The notes below the pieces were generated by a model. The model was not told where the DNA came from. It searched no databases and was given only the letters and a program-made list of their open reading frames with translations. Both the position numbers and the translations under genes were made by a program. Below are positions 3,090 through 55,928 of a DNA stretch of 64,000 nt, piece by piece. Source of the DNA: Bacteroidota bacterium (lineage in GTDB: Bacteria > Bacteroidota > Bacteroidia > CAIKAF01); NCBI GenBank assembly GCA_016866335.1, contig VGMT01000001.1, positions 1 through 64,000 on the forward strand. The letters are read 5' to 3'. The stretch's first letter is position 1. Each line of letters opens with the position of its first letter.

Positions 3090-3235
3090 GCGGTAGGGAT
3101 TGAGCCGGGTAGCGCGCAAAGGGCGAAGTGCGGGGTTCCGCGTGCTGCGGAGGCGACTTCAGGAGCCACCGCAAAGCCGCTGGACCCCCCACTGAGCCCT
3201 GCGTACTACCGGTGAAAGCCCGCAACCGCCCCCCC
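3090..3235 (-). repeat. Dispersed covarying hairpin repeat, copy A
   Basis: One of seven related intergenic elements. Strand is given so that the element reads GGGCGG...CGGGCTTTCACCGGTAG...CTACCCGG...CAATCCC. It begins about 10 bp after the DUF1295 stop codon and is preceded (in its own direction) by a T7 run. Its variable third stem pairs GGGCTCAGTGGGGGGTCC with GGAACCCCGCACTTCGCCC imperfectly. The apical stem is GCGG.GGC/GCC.CCGC. Track ORFs 3019..3252 and 3128..3325 are translations of this element and are not genes. Confidence 0.88.
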
Positions 3236-6206: not shown

Positions 6207-6342
6207 GTAAAAAGTGCTTACAACAAAGATAGCATTTCCTTGAGCGAAAGAAATGCATACCGGGCTCGTAAGATGCGATTGAAAATGCAAAGGCGAAAGG
6301 GTATCGGCTTTGAGCTAAGTTTGATTTTGGTTCTTTTATTGT

Positions 6343-6485
6343 GGGCGGCAAACGGGCTTTCGCGGGTTGTCCGCGGGTGCCGTAAGGCGGGCCCAGCGGG
6401 CTTGCGGTGGCTCCTAAAGTCGCCTCCGCGCCGCGCGGGCCCGGCTACGGCACCCTTGCGGGCAACCCTGCTCAATCCCTGCCGC
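6343..6485 (+). repeat. Dispersed covarying hairpin repeat, copy B
   Basis: Element in the gap between the symporter 3' end and dnaX start, antisense to both. Third-stem arms are GGGTGCCGTA and TACGGCACCC, perfectly complementary, flanking GGGCCC/GGGCCC. The second stem is GGGTTG...CAACCC instead of GGTAG...CTACC, a compensatory change. The 3' outer arm TGCCGC is followed by an extra GGGCGGC. Track ORFs 6218..6529 and 6240..6497 are spurious. Nothing else is visible in the 6207-6584 gap. Confidence 0.9.
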
Positions 6486-6584
6486 GGGCGGCTTTGAATG
6501 AAAACCTGAGGCCTTAAACCAGAATGCAAGGAAATAGAATAATCCTATGGTTTAATCAGTGAAAATTGGGCCCAATTGACGAAC

Positions 6585-8294
6585 CTAGAATTTCTGGGAA
6601 CTCCTTAGATTAAAGTAAAGCTGAAAAACCGCGGCAAGCCCCATGGTCAGTAAGCAGCCAATCGGATTTAACCACAAATAGGCCAAACCTGAAACGTGGT
6701 TTGGAAGAATATGGGTATCAAAATACAAGAATAGCACCACGGCTTCGCTAATCAAACCCGCCAGCAGTAGGGCCCTTCCTTGTACAAACCGCAAGAAAAA
6801 TGCCGTACAAAAAATACCCAAAATGGTTCCATAAAAAAGGGAACCAATAATATTTACCGCTTCAATTAGGTTGTCGAACAAAGAAAAAATCAAAGCAAAA
6901 AAGATGGCAACCACTCCCCAAGCGGCCGTTGCCAGCCTGTTGGCCATTAATTGCCCAGAATCTGATTTAGGTAATATCCCCATTGGCCTTAGAAAATCCA
7001 TTGCGGTTACAGAACCTAAGGCGCTTAATTCTCCCGATGTGGACGACATAGCAGCCGCAAATATCATGGCAAGCAATAAACCCACCAACCCGATTGGCAA
7101 ATAACCCATTATAAACGATAAGAATATGTAGTCTCCGTCGTTGCTGTCTTCCTGGGGAAGATGTTTTTTCATTAAGACCTTTACCGATTCCCTTAATTTT
7201 TTCTCTGATTCAAGGCTGTTCAAATACGATTCTTTAAATTCCGGTTCAGGAATGCTACCTGCCGACCAAGAACGAATGCTTTTTTGCCGCTCTTGGTTTA
7301 AATTTTGGTATTCGTTGTTTAAAACCGTCAAAGAATCTTTGGCGGCAGATTTCTGCAATTCCGACCATTGAACGGAATTAAAATGCAAGGGTTGGGGGTT
7401 GAATTGAAAAAAAATAAAAACCAAAACACCAACAAACAGAACTAAAAACTGCATCGGAATTTTAAATACCCCATTGAACAATAATCCTAAGCGGCCTTCA
7501 CGAACATTCTTGCCCACCAAATACCTTCCAACCTGCGATTGGTCGGTACCGAAATAACTTAGGGAAAGAAAAAAACCGCCAAGTAAACCACTCCAAATGG
7601 TATATCGATTTGATAAATCGGGTGTCCAATCAATGGCATTCATTTTGCCGGCCATTCCTGCCAATTCTAGTCCCTGAGAAAGGGGAATATGTTTTTGAAT
7701 GTACACCAAGAGCAAAGCCAATGCTACCAAAAGCCCGCCAAGCATAACAGCCATTTGTTGTTTCTGGGTAATGGCCACAGCTCGGCTACCTCCAGTGGTG
7801 GTGTAGGCAATAACCAGCAAGCCAATGCAGATGTTGGTTAGGCTTAAATTTAATCCCAATAAGGTGCTTAAAACAATGGACGGGGCATAAATGGTAATTC
7901 CAGCAGCCAAGCCACGTTGAATCAAAAACAAAAAAGCAGTGTACCATCGAGCCCATTTTCCAAATCGGTGCTCTAAAAATTCGTAGGCAGTGTACACCTG
8001 CATTTTATAATACAGAGGGATAAACACAGCCGAAACGACCAAAATAGCCAAAGGCATCCCTAAATAAAATTGAATAAAGCCCAAACCGTCTTGGTAGGCT
8101 TTTCCTGGAACCGAAATAAAAGTAACCGCCGAGGCTTGGGTTGCCATGACAGAAATTCCTATGGTCCACCAAGGCATTTGTCGGTTGCCCAGCAAATACG
8201 ATTCAGCGTCCATTTGCTTGCGGGTTGCGTACATCCCATAAGCCACAATGCCTAAAAGGGTGCCCAGCAAAACAAACCAGTCTAACCAATGCAT
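6585..8294 (-). CDS. Sodium:solute symporter (SSS family)
   Basis: 569 aa, about 13 transmembrane helices of the LeuT-type SSS fold. Family features include the N-terminal YLLGNRQMPWWTIGISVMAT segment (non-bilayer loop and Na-site helix TM1), TTGGSRAVAITQ, and GTDQSQVGRYLVGKN. A hydrophilic insert of about 80 residues (roughly 305-385, SELQKSAAKDSL...QEDSNDGD) separates two membrane blocks, as in several Bacteroidota SSS members. Transported solute is unknown (sugars, acids, amino acids or sialic acid in relatives). A 37-aa membrane peptide gene ends one base before its start codon, suggesting a coupled accessory subunit. Confidence 0.9.
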   Translation of the reverse strand: MHWLDWFVLLGTLLGIVAYGMYATRKQMDAESYLLGNRQMPWWTIGISVMATQASAVTFISVPGKAYQDGLGFIQFYLGMPLAILVVSAVFIPLYYKMQVYTAYEFLEHRFGKWARWYTAFLFLIQRGLAAGITIYAPSIVLSTLLGLNLSLTNICIGLLVIAYTTTGGSRAVAITQKQQMAVMLGGLLVALALLLVYIQKHIPLSQGLELAGMAGKMNAIDWTPDLSNRYTIWSGLLGGFFLSLSYFGTDQSQVGRYLVGKNVREGRLGLLFNGVFKIPMQFLVLFVGVLVFIFFQFNPQPLHFNSVQWSELQKSAAKDSLTVLNNEYQNLNQERQKSIRSWSAGSIPEPEFKESYLNSLESEKKLRESVKVLMKKHLPQEDSNDGDYIFLSFIMGYLPIGLVGLLLAMIFAAAMSSTSGELSALGSVTAMDFLRPMGILPKSDSGQLMANRLATAAWGVVAIFFALIFSLFDNLIEAVNIIGSLFYGTILGIFCTAFFLRFVQGRALLLAGLISEAVVLFLYFDTHILPNHVSGLAYLWLNPIGCLLTMGLAAVFQLYFNLRSSQKF

Positions 8295-16992: not shown

Positions 16993-17132
16993 GGGCGGCA
17001 GCCGGGCTTTCACCGGTAGTCCTCAGCAAAAGGGGCTGGGGCAGCGGTCTTGCGTTGGCTCCCAAGGTCGCCTCCGCGCCACGCGCCCCAGGCCCTTTCG
17101 CTATGCGGGCTACCGCGTTCAATCCCTGCCGC
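16993..17132 (+). repeat. Dispersed covarying hairpin repeat, copy C
   Basis: Reads in the direction of flanking genes, just after the LuxR-type gene, preceded by two T6 runs. Outer stem GGGCGGCA/TGCCGC; second stem GGTAGTCC/GGGCTACC; third-stem arms AGCAAAAGGGGCTGGGGC and GCCCCAGGCCCTTTCGCT are complementary apart from small bulges. Track ORF 17055..17276 is spurious. Confidence 0.9.
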
Positions 17133-29288: not shown

Positions 29289-29431
29289 GCGGGCGGGATT
29301 GAACTAGGTAGCTGACCCTATGGAAAGCCTAGGGCCCGCGTGCTGTGCAGGCGACTTTAGGAGCCCGCGCAAAGCCGCTGGGCCCTTGGCTTTTTGAGGG
29401 GCACTACCTGTGAAAGCCCGAGAGCCCGCCC
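29289..29431 (-). repeat. Dispersed covarying hairpin repeat, copy D
   Basis: Lies between convergent genes. In its own direction: T6, GGGCGGG outer stem, CGGGCTTTCAC, AGGTAGT, third-stem arms CCCCTCAAAAAGCCAAGGGCCC-like and GGGCCCTAGGCTTTCCATAG-like, and TTCAATCCCGCCCGC at the 3' end. Apical stem GCGCGGGC/GCCTGCAC has one mismatch. No separate terminator is seen for either flanking gene, so the element may serve as one. Confidence 0.9.
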
Positions 29432-34800: not shown

Positions 34801-37302
34801 TTAATCGTTTCTGTGTCTGCGTTTTTTTGATGGGAAGAGTCGTCTGCTTAAACCCGCCCAACTCATCGGATTGTTTCGAGCCCTTCGTTTGCGGATTTCC
34901 TCCTCGTTATCGTCGCTGGTATAGCCATATCCATACCCATATCCATATCCATATCCGTACCCATAACCGTACCCATATCCATAGGCATAACCGTATCCAT
35001 AACCGTACCCGTACCCACTGCCTTTTTTACGGAAGGGAGGTAAGCCGTTTATCACATAGCTTATTTTTTGAATTTGGTTGGTATCGTGAAGACGTTCGAG
35101 GTTATTGATAAAGAACTTTCTTGAATACGAGGCCCTGAACACATAGATAGGATAATCGGCTCTTCGCAGTACAAAAACGCCGTCGGTAACAATACCAACG
35201 GGAGGGTTATCAACAACGATGTAATCGTAGGTTTTTTGAAGTTCATCCAGCATTTCATCCATCCGATGTCCCATAATCAATTCAGATGGGTTTGGAGGAA
35301 TAGGGCCGGCTGTGATGTAATCCAGGTTATCGATTTCAGAGGTTTGAACGCAATCTTCAAAAGTGTCTCGTCCAATTAAAATGGTGCTAAGTCCCTTTTT
35401 ATTAGGAGAATTGAATCCGAGGTGGATTTTAGGCTTTCGCATATCGCCGTCAATAACCACGACTTTTTTACCTGCCAAAGCTAGAATTCCCGCAATATTT
35501 AAGGCAATAAACGTTTTTCCCTCGCCTGAAATGGTACTGGTAACCGCTATTAATTTGCTTCCGGGGTCCGAATTGATAAAATCGAGGTTGGCCCGAATAT
35601 TTCGAAAGGCTTCGGCAATAGTGGATTTGGGTTTTTTATCTACAATCAACTGAGAAATAGGAAGGCCAATTTTATATTGAAAAACAATTCCAAGGAAAGG
35701 CACGGAGGTATGTTTGCCAACATCGGCAATGGATAAAATTTGATTAAAGAGCAAATACCGAACAACCACAATTAAAAAACTGATAACGAACCAACCCACA
35801 AAGCTGCCGCCAACCACCAATTTTTTGTTTGGAGAAACGGGAGTGTCGTTAGGACGGCTGTAGCGTAAAAGACGGTAATCGGGGGCGTAGCCTTCTCTAG
35901 CCAAAGAAAATTCAGCTTTTTGTTGAATAAGTTCGTCGTAATATTTCTCATTCACCTCGTAAACCCGTTCGAGCCTAGCCAATTCAATTTGATCGGCAAT
36001 GCTTTTTTCGATGAATAATTTGCTTTCAAGGTCTTTGATGCGTTGTTGGGCCTCCTTGACTTTAAAATCAAGACTTTCGACTTGGTATTCAACTGCCTTG
36101 GCCATTCTGCCGCGAATAACATCAATATGAAAATCAAGCCTTTTGATTTGATTGCTGGATTCTTGAAAATTATACTGCATTAACTCACGTTGCAGCAGCA
36201 TATTTTGAATTTGTTGCACCAATGAGGCGACTCCTGGGCTATTTTGTACCTGGCTGGCAAGAATAATGGATTCACCTACAGGGATATTTTTATCGAGAAT
36301 TTTTTGGTAAACGGTACGGGTAACTTGTAGGGTTATCAAAAGTTCTTGAACCTGCTTTTCCAGTTCAAGAAGTTTGCCGAAATCGCCGGCGGTACTGAGC
36401 TCGGATGTTGGCCCATCTAAGCCATACTTTTTTTGGTAGGATTTTAGACTTGAGTCGGCCTCTTCCAATTTGTCTTTAACCAAGCCAAGAGTTTCATCGA
36501 TGTAGGTTAGCATTTTGTTGGCGCTTTCCTGTTTTGAATCGATGTAAAAGCTTTCATAGGCCATGGCTACCGCATTTACCATATCAGAAGCTCTGAAGGA
36601 GTTTACGTCGGTGTAGGCAATTTTAATGGTTTTAGCTTCTTCATTTTCAATTTCGATTTCAAGTCCTGGAAGGTACTTTCCGTTTATGGATTCAGGATCA
36701 TTAACTATGAAATAATGAAAATGGTTGGTTTCGTAATAAAAATCTGGGGCACGCCAAACTACCGACAATTCAAAATACCCAAACTTTTTGGTGGTATTTA
36801 AAGGAATGGTTGAAGACTCCTTGGTTTCATCGATTTCAAAACGGACGGTGCAGGTTCTGTCTTCATTAAAGTCAACGTGAATAGGAACACCATAAGTTAA
36901 GGGGTTGACTTTGTCAACTTTAATAAAATAGGGTGCTTTGTTGTAGTTGTCGGACGACATTATGGCTCCTTTCCGATAATAGGTGATGGAAAGGGGCAAG
37001 GTGTCAATAACGCGCTGCAAGAAAACAGGAGATCGAAGCAACTCAAGTTCTCTGGCAAGGTTTAAATCGAAAAAATTTCCTTGGTTTAAATAATCCTTTT
37101 TTTCTTCATCGGCCTTGGTAAGCTGAATAACGCTAAAGGTCTCAAATGTTGGAGTTGTGTATCTTAAAAAAAGGAAAGCGGAAGCGGCGGCAATGACACC
37201 CAAAAGCAAAATAATCCACAAAGACCTTCTGAAAATCATGCCCAGCAATGCTGGGTCTAGGTCTTGATTAATTGCAGTTACGGGCCGACGCTCTTCGCTC
37301 AT
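34801..37302 (-). CDS. Wzc-type polysaccharide co-polymerase / tyrosine autokinase
   Basis: 833 aa. Wzz-type chain-length domain with transmembrane helices near residues 30 and 510, a periplasmic region with extended coiled coil (about 250-470), then a cytoplasmic BY-kinase: Walker A STISGEGKT, A' VVVIDGDMRKPKIH, Walker B YDYIVVDNPP. The C-terminal tyrosine cluster is remarkable: 16 Tyr alternating with Gly (one Ala) at about residues 763-794, followed by a basic tail (RKRRARNN...KKRRHRND). The cluster is autophosphorylated in trans in this family and controls oligomer state and chain length. It starts 3 bp after the Wza-like gene. Confidence 0.95.
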   Translation of the reverse strand: MSEERRPVTAINQDLDPALLGMIFRRSLWIILLLGVIAAASAFLFLRYTTPTFETFSVIQLTKADEEKKDYLNQGNFFDLNLARELELLRSPVFLQRVIDTLPLSITYYRKGAIMSSDNYNKAPYFIKVDKVNPLTYGVPIHVDFNEDRTCTVRFEIDETKESSTIPLNTTKKFGYFELSVVWRAPDFYYETNHFHYFIVNDPESINGKYLPGLEIEIENEEAKTIKIAYTDVNSFRASDMVNAVAMAYESFYIDSKQESANKMLTYIDETLGLVKDKLEEADSSLKSYQKKYGLDGPTSELSTAGDFGKLLELEKQVQELLITLQVTRTVYQKILDKNIPVGESIILASQVQNSPGVASLVQQIQNMLLQRELMQYNFQESSNQIKRLDFHIDVIRGRMAKAVEYQVESLDFKVKEAQQRIKDLESKLFIEKSIADQIELARLERVYEVNEKYYDELIQQKAEFSLAREGYAPDYRLLRYSRPNDTPVSPNKKLVVGGSFVGWFVISFLIVVVRYLLFNQILSIADVGKHTSVPFLGIVFQYKIGLPISQLIVDKKPKSTIAEAFRNIRANLDFINSDPGSKLIAVTSTISGEGKTFIALNIAGILALAGKKVVVIDGDMRKPKIHLGFNSPNKKGLSTILIGRDTFEDCVQTSEIDNLDYITAGPIPPNPSELIMGHRMDEMLDELQKTYDYIVVDNPPVGIVTDGVFVLRRADYPIYVFRASYSRKFFINNLERLHDTNQIQKISYVINGLPPFRKKGSGYGYGYGYGYAYGYGYGYGYGYGYGYGYGYGYTSDDNEEEIRKRRARNNPMSWAGLSRRLFPSKKRRHRND
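34921..35016 (-). repeat. In-frame Gly-Tyr codon repeat in Wzc tail
   Basis: 96 bp of alternating GGN and TAY codons (one GCC) encode (GY)16. The DNA is a degenerate 6-bp repeat (GGATAT / GGGTAC variants), prone to gain or loss of whole units without frameshift. Confidence 0.95.
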
Positions 37303-42935: not shown

Positions 42936-43078
42936 GCGGGCGGGATTGAACCAGGTTGCCCGCAAGGCCAAAAGCCAAAGGGCCCGCGAGCTGCGCAGGC
43001 GACTTCAGGAGCCCGCGCAAAGCCGCTGGGGCCTAGGCTTTTGGCCGCGGACTACCGGTGAAAGCCCGAAACCCGCCC
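42936..43078 (-). repeat. Dispersed covarying hairpin repeat, copy E
   Basis: Best-preserved copy. Located between divergent lpd and DUF4199 genes. Outer stem GGGCGGG/CCCGCCC is perfect; second stem ACCGGTAGTCCGC against GCGGGCAACCTGGT has one mismatch; third-stem arms GGCCAAAAGCC and GGCTTTTGGCC are perfect; apical stem GCGCGGGC/GCCTGCGC is intact around loop TCCTGAAGTC. A T7 run precedes it. Track ORF 42946..43134 is spurious. Confidence 0.93.
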
Positions 43079-46171: not shown

Positions 46172-46245
46172 GGTCCGGTAGTTCAGTTGGTTAGAATACA
46201 TGCCTGTCACGCATGGGGTCGCGGGTTCGAGTCCCGTCCGGACCG
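46172..46245 (+). tRNA. tRNA-Asp (anticodon GTC)
   Basis: Cloverleaf by eye: acceptor GGTCCGG pairs with CCGGACC, discriminator G at 46245; anticodon stem CATGC/GCATG around loop CTGTCAC with anticodon GTC; T arm GCGGG TTCGAGT CCCGT. No CCA is encoded. It is located 43 bp before repeat copy F. Confidence 0.97.
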
Positions 46246-46287
46246 CTTCAAAACTTCAAGGATTTCCTTGGAGTTTTTTTTGTTTTT

Positions 46288-46429
46288 GGGCGGGTGCGGG
46301 CTTTCAGAGCTAGTCCGCCGTCTGCAGTCCCGGTTGCAGCGGGCTCAGGGTAGCTCCCAAGGTCGCTCCCTGCTCCACGCGCAACCCGGCCAGCATCCGT
46401 TTCGGGCTAGCCTCTTCAATCCCTCCCGC
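46288..46429 (+). repeat. Dispersed covarying hairpin repeat, copy F
   Basis: Most divergent full copy. It keeps GGGCGGGTGCGGGCTTTC and TTCAATCCCTCCCGC, but stem sequences differ with matching changes: AGAGCTAG against CTAGCCTCT where others have ACCGGTAG against CTACCNGGT, and apical CAGGGTAGC/GCTCCCTG where others have GGC/GCC. T8 and T5 runs precede it. Confidence 0.88.
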
Positions 46430-55709: not shown

Positions 55710-55894
55710 TGATATGGATAAATGCCATACTCAAATTGAAATGGCAAATATTGGCCTTGTTCCTCTATGTGTTCTCATTCGGCCTTTTAGTCTCCGCTCA
55801 AACAGAAGACAACTTTAATCCCCGAAGCAGTTGGCGCGAGGAAGGCAAGGCGACCCCGGGAGCCACTGCCTGCCCGCTGCCAACAGCCTGTTGA
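55709..55894 (+). pseudogene. Truncated secreted-protein gene fused into repeat copy G
   Basis: Its ATG overlaps the TonB receptor stop as TAATG. The first 37 residues are a signal peptide plus mature start (ALFLYVFSFGLLVSAQTEDN), then at about 55818 the frame enters repeat G and ends at 55892. The tail after NFNP is repeat sequence, not protein-like. The remainder of the original gene is not found before the next gene (56033). So this is probably a partner gene of the receptor broken by deletion or element insertion. Confidence 0.6.
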
Positions 55895-55928
55895 CTGCGG
55901 ACTATAACGGAAAGCCCGTAACCCGCCC
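55818..55928 (-). repeat. Dispersed covarying hairpin repeat, copy G (3'-shortened)
   Basis: Retains the 5' part (GGGCGGGTTACGGGCTTTC, TAGTCCGC), a third stem with GTTGGC/GCCAAC and GCAGT/ACTGC, and an apical GGCAGTGGC / GCCTTGCC. The 3' block TTCAATCCC...GCCCGC is missing and replaced by the coding start of the stub gene. About 111 bp versus 140-146 bp elsewhere. Confidence 0.75.

Follow-up and report, generated by a model that had tools for sequence, protein, structure and literature searches.

Seven copies (A-G) of a GC-rich, imperfect hairpin of 143 nt, all of them between genes, lie in the window, by which we mean the whole analysed stretch of 64,000 nt. When folded as DNA, each of the six intact copies forms a single long hairpin (z from -2.1 to -7.1 relative to shuffled sequences), and copy D also belongs to this set. 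The copies are as follows, with their covariance-model scores and the state of the orthologous sites in the sister species G001, G003 and G004:

3090 to 3232, minus strand: copy A; 133.6 bits; orthologs in G001 and G003, with a different core in G001
6343 to 6485, plus strand: copy B, the finding under study; 143 nt, fold z -7.1; orthologs in G001, G003 and G004
16993 to 17132, plus strand: copy C; 127.3 bits; ortholog in G001, site without the element in G003 and G004
29289 to 29431, minus strand: copy D; 111.2 bits; orthologs in G001 and G003
42936 to 43078, minus strand: copy E; 139.7 bits; G003 site without the element
46288 to 46429, plus strand: copy F; 111.3 bits; G003 ortholog sharing the outer hairpin but not the core
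55798 to 55928, minus strand: copy G, decayed, the right half of the stem gone; 25.7 bits; G003 ortholog intact

Anatomy and distribution of the hairpin

The hairpin begins 5' with a T-run followed by GGGCGG and ends 3' with CCGC. Inward of these ends follow, in order, a stem GGG/CCC, an internal loop, the outer stem, the middle stem, the inner stem and the apex. The fixed parts are the internal loop GCTTTC/TTCAATC, the bulges, the apex GCTCC-NNNN-GTCGC and the T-rich 5' flank, and a T.G mismatch inside the outer stem is retained by nearly all copies. The T-richness is part of the element, being equal in both gene contexts and absent after other stop codons. Complementarity between the outer flanks was not above that of shuffled sequences. 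The parts of copy B are located as follows:

6333 to 6342, plus strand: T-rich flank 5' of the hairpin; about 60% T and 3% C at -10 to -1 (128 copies, either gene context)
6357 to 6361, plus strand: left side of the internal loop, CTTTC, closed by G-C; invariant in alignments A1 and A3
6362 to 6374, plus strand: left arm of the outer stem (helix 2), locus-specific between orthologs; two-sided changes in 8 of 13 pairs
6375 to 6384, plus strand: left arm of the variable middle stem (helix 3), GGGTGCCGTA; two-sided changes in 17 of 21 pairs
6389 to 6394, plus strand: left arm of the inner stem, GGGCCC, then a bulged A; from the fold
6410 to 6423, plus strand: apex, GCTCC-TAAA-GTCGC; nearly invariant, and found also in a Sphingobacteriaceae genome
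6437 to 6442, plus strand: right arm of the inner stem, GGGCCC; from the fold
6446 to 6455, plus strand: right arm of the variable middle stem, TACGGCACCC; helix 3 covariation
6456 to 6457, plus strand: TT bulge next to the middle stem; retained by most copies in two alignments
6458 to 6471, plus strand: right arm of the outer stem; helix 2 covariation, kept at orthologous loci
6472 to 6476, plus strand: right side of the internal loop, TCAAT (the loop is asymmetric, CTTTC/TTCAAT); invariant in A1 and A3

Copies A-G belong to a DNA hairpin repeat that is present between genes, in high copy number, in one genus of freshwater Flavobacteriales. Their own genome (G000, 2.45 Mb) holds at least 150 full-length copies among the covariance-model matches listed, and 184 copies by exact motif, or about one per 10 kb. 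Counts of the exact motif are about 184-197 per genome in three species of the genus, G000 included, and 143 in a fourth, the carriers including lake and Caspian Flavobacteriales MAGs. It was not found in two other species of the genus, and the further genera sampled in the class yielded a single match, in G263, which is due to chance. A distant relative of the hairpin is present in a groundwater MAG of the Sphingobacteriaceae, where at least seven copies share its internal loop and apex. Carriage by viruses was also considered, and viral contigs gave no match to the hairpin; a collapsed hairpin pattern gave no matches over 149 genomes of the class, and as the carrier G000 was among them this result is uninformative. 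The two other species of the genus have T-run hairpins with another apex; in G002 and G005, such hairpins share the outline of the window hairpin (L249 981-1130; L109 513-648; L110 422-568 and 5288-5423) and are probably a sister family.

Pairing rules and genomic position

The preliminary description had proposed a middle stem that differs in sequence from copy to copy and is nevertheless self-complementary, an observation that we confirm in part and an interpretation that is supported in part. The two arms of the middle stem do pair in copy B, and the other copies carry different, yet self-complementary, sequences at this position. The first 40 copies were collected by similarity search with copy B and are biased toward B-like copies; an unbiased set of 28 copies was therefore drawn from 464 kb of DNA fetched without regard to the repeat. 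In this unbiased alignment, 94.3% of stem cells are paired (5.7% unpaired), against 74.3% after shuffling, and in none of the five covariation measures does any of 500 shuffles reach the observed value. The changes are two-sided in 211 cells and one-sided in six, and sliding the partner by one column lowers pairing to about 50% or less. Two-sided changes fall in 29 of the 43 pairs, and they do so in the outer, middle and inner stems alike, so that the middle stem is not the only variable one. Furthermore, the arms quoted earlier as the middle stem of copy F (GGTTGC/GCAACC, 46288) and of copy G (GTTGGC/GCCAAC, 55798) both belong to the inner stem; in copy G the right arm of the middle stem is lost.

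The cells that depart from Watson-Crick pairing comprise 9 G-T, 19 A-C and 50 others. In tRNA stems of the same genomes the corresponding counts are 15, 0 and 2, a difference from the hairpin of p ~1e-9 in what is a small control of 15 tRNAs. Since G-T pairs are not favoured in the hairpin, unlike in tRNAs, the constraint on its stems looks to act at the DNA level.

An element working as RNA, transcribed as the 3' end of a gene and serving as a terminator, an RNase block or a structured RNA, is nonetheless the alternative with most in its favour, although we judge it unlikely. Its case lies in genomic position, for which gene neighbours were taken from simple ORF calls rather than curated annotation. 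Both neighbours are known for 115 copies, of which 37 are in convergent and 13 in divergent gaps, and the T-rich end is found a median of 20 nt past the stop codon of the co-oriented gene. This end is also the nearer one in 29 of the 37 convergent gaps, and all nine close copy pairs are arranged tail to tail. Other terminator-like hairpins follow 2 of 39 genes that have the element after them, as compared to 14 of 88 that do not, which is in the same direction but not significant (p 0.15). Proximity to stop codons is equally compatible with a role as RNA and counts against a folded-DNA reading. Against the RNA reading, however, an intrinsic terminator consists of a GC hairpin and then a T-run on the transcribed strand, whereas here the T-run precedes the hairpin and is on the wrong side. 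A structured RNA would show G-U above other mismatches, whereas G-T pairs are no commoner here than A-C; in addition, no curated covariance model in Rfam matches the hairpin, and orientation in tandem gaps is evenly split (33:32). The more specific proposal that the elements are strand-biased pieces of 3' UTRs was rejected, as tandem gaps lack an orientation bias. Copy F begins about 42 nt after a tRNA-Asp gene (window 46172-46429), and this arrangement is kept in G003.

Orthologous sites and replacement of the core

Aligned DNA identity in the window region is about 75-82% with G001 and about 63-81% with G003 and G004. For copies A, B, C, D and F, an ortholog occupies the corresponding site even where the flanks no longer align, and further orthologous loci were paired by their flanking DNA. 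The element is thus inherited vertically at orthologous sites, with occasional presence or absence: it is missing from the C site in G003 and G004 and from the E site in G003, where the flanks are too diverged for the junctions to be read. As precise insertion junctions were not obtained, the case for mobility rests on presence or absence at these two sites. In G003, an extra 3.5 kb (L101 3986-7557) adjoins the ortholog of copy D and carries another hairpin copy at 6567-6707. At a further locus, G001 has several copies of a palindromic repeat, GTAGAGACGCAAAATTTTGCGTCTCTAC (L122 2693-2840), where G000 has a hairpin (L024), which makes this gap a possible hotspot for repeats.

The close species G003 and G004 show few differences at their orthologous copies, each single and one-sided, and distant orthologs differ by two-sided changes. 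The earlier suggestion that the arms changed base pair by base pair is consequently supported for orthologs. One-sided divergence of a single ancestral stem, the contrary pattern named in the preliminary description, was seen only between very close orthologs.

A second kind of change is apparent when the core (both arms and the apex) is compared separately from the remainder, the outer hairpin. Orthologs at the locus L019 have an outer identity of 0.98 and a core identity of 0.62; the corresponding values are 0.95 and 0.70 at the locus 159k, 0.95 and 0.69 for copy F, and 0.91 and 0.66 at the locus 103k. Random pairs of copies give 0.79 and 0.68. With the outer hairpin near-identical and the core at the random level, the core has been exchanged as one block while the outer hairpin around it was conserved, and this is the case at four loci at least. 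Gene conversion, as invoked earlier, is supported in this form, the whole core being exchanged while the outer hairpin stays, and not as the renewal of an arm pair. Clustering of the arms over 166 copies from four species, a sample enriched for B-like copies, agrees: arms do match those of other copies, with 321 pairs of copies having both arms in common and no pair having one arm only. The statement that arms share no sequence between copies is accurate for the seven window copies but fails genome-wide, where 71 of the 166 cores form one family and 81 are unique. As close orthologs differ by one-sided changes and cores are swapped whole, the arms have come to differ by slow compensation together with abrupt block replacement. 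The two arms appear to stay matched because the structure is conserved and because the middle of the hairpin is swapped in one piece, so that their differences are not random and do not serve as addresses. The variable middle stem is, therefore, best read as that part of the replaceable core which evolves freely as long as the structure is kept, and not as a tag.

It is conceivable, if rather doubtful, that the outer hairpin serves as a docking site fixed in the chromosome and the inner one as a cassette, with a putative recombinase that acts on folded single strands exchanging whole inner hairpins among some 200 sites. If this were true, each site would keep its outer stem and gain new cores.

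A classic mobile MITE or REPIN whose RAYT or IS200/605 transposase was lost recently would fit the high copy number, the subfamilies, the presence or absence at two sites and the Y1 transposase genes of relatives. We nevertheless find it improbable. The Y1 (RAYT) transposase, PF01797, is absent from G000 and G001, each of which has about 190 copies, and the hairpin has no GTAG or CGTC end. Moreover, the Y1 genes of relatives mostly have other short palindromes as neighbours, GCTCCGTAGGAGC or GAGACGCACAATCGTGCGTCTC for example, although at one Y1 locus of G002 a related hairpin is also nearby. A RAYT was rejected as the mover on these grounds, there being none in the own genome and those of relatives keeping mostly other company. 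The palindromes found among the Y1 genes of sister species (L245, L246, L248 and L249), namely GCTCCGTAGGAGC, GAGACGCACAATCGTGCGTCTC and GACCTCGAAGAGGTC, are probably each the own REP family of these genes.

Two-sided change could also arise in one event if one arm served as the template for renewing its partner, whether through template switching or through hairpin-primed synthesis, as the hairpin copying of the preliminary description would have it. Near-identical copies do differ mostly by two-sided changes (226, versus 40 via G-T and 71 via A-C); however, many such pairs consist of one common core in different outer hairpins. Re-copying should also remove several features that nearly all copies, and swapped cores too, still have, namely the asymmetric loop CTTTC/TTCAAT, the bulges (TT and A) and the T.G mismatch, and the close orthologs in G003 and G004 have single-sided changes only. 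Hence, we consider arm renewal very unlikely. The suggestion that each stem is a copy-specific tag, an address pairing with an antisense target elsewhere, has the unique cores (81 of 166) to recommend it but is barely credible, since arms find matches of 11.4 nt in a search of the sampled genome with other element copies masked versus 11.0 nt for reversed controls, long matches are mainly other element copies plus a few coding stretches, one core is common to many loci, and cores change at orthologous loci.

Proposed recognition in folded form, and known systems

The reading that we prefer, with moderate confidence, is that of a RAYT-independent, REPIN-like DNA hairpin with a replaceable core, putatively recognised by a protein in its folded state, whose stems would need only Watson-Crick pairing. 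Its working form is likely to be one DNA strand folded as a hairpin, be it an extruded cruciform or the lagging-strand template, and the putative protein would recognise the parts that are fixed, namely loops, bulges and apex. Selection on loop recognition may keep the arms paired, the alternative being a bias of recombination by which the two arms always travel together, and the core blocks would move by recombination between copies. As to function, our best guess is that the hairpin is a site recognised as folded DNA at the 3' ends of genes.

Integron attC sites are recognised as folded single strands and combine variable stems with fixed extrahelical bases. The hairpin has similarly variable stems and fixed unpaired bases, and folded single-strand recognition is proposed for it here; unlike attC sites, its copies are dispersed rather than in a cassette array, and its ends lack RYYYAAC/GTTRRRY boxes, as judged by eye. 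ERIC sequences, described for enterobacteria and Vibrio, have to our knowledge no sequence relation to the hairpin (they are set apart here by description), and we know of no core swapping described in them. They are about 127 bp long, intergenic and predicted to form a single long stem-loop (PMC2267715), and by description the hairpin is like them in location, approximate length and shape.

The GTAG and CGTC REP families are 20-40 bp long, end in GTAG or CGTC and often show G-T pairs (PMC3733652). Their subfamilies with alternative complementary stem residues recall the hairpin (PMC3733652), which, however, has neither end motif (where some copies contain GTAG, it is internal to the outer stem) and does not favour G-T. 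The nearest likeness is to REPINs, for which the sections of Bertels and Rainey (2011; PMC3116915) drawn on here describe a variable spacer, with length and hairpin formation as the critical features and compensatory changes on either side common. On the same account, both are intergenic, occur in hundreds of copies and have conserved parts around a variable, self-complementary middle with compensatory changes, while the hairpin is 143 nt long and a REPIN consists of two short REPs. The hairpin differs further in its conserved internal loop and apex and in having two carrier genomes without a RAYT. For core block replacement at orthologous loci, a limited literature search found no counterpart in those sections of the REPIN description (PMC3116915). 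Since the hairpin behaves like a REPIN but lacks the RAYT and end-motif features, it seems to be a variant of the REPIN kind and not a member.

The hairpin offers a natural test case for the evolution of long DNA hairpins, with loops and pairing rules that can be followed over hundreds of copies and four species, and its orthologous sites let slow compensation be told from block exchange. REPIN-like behaviour is possible without a RAYT in the genome, which leads to the question as to what moves or maintains such repeats. Elsewhere in the window, at 34910-35029, lies a 12-base tandem repeat, TAYCCATAYCCA, in eight overlapping copies.
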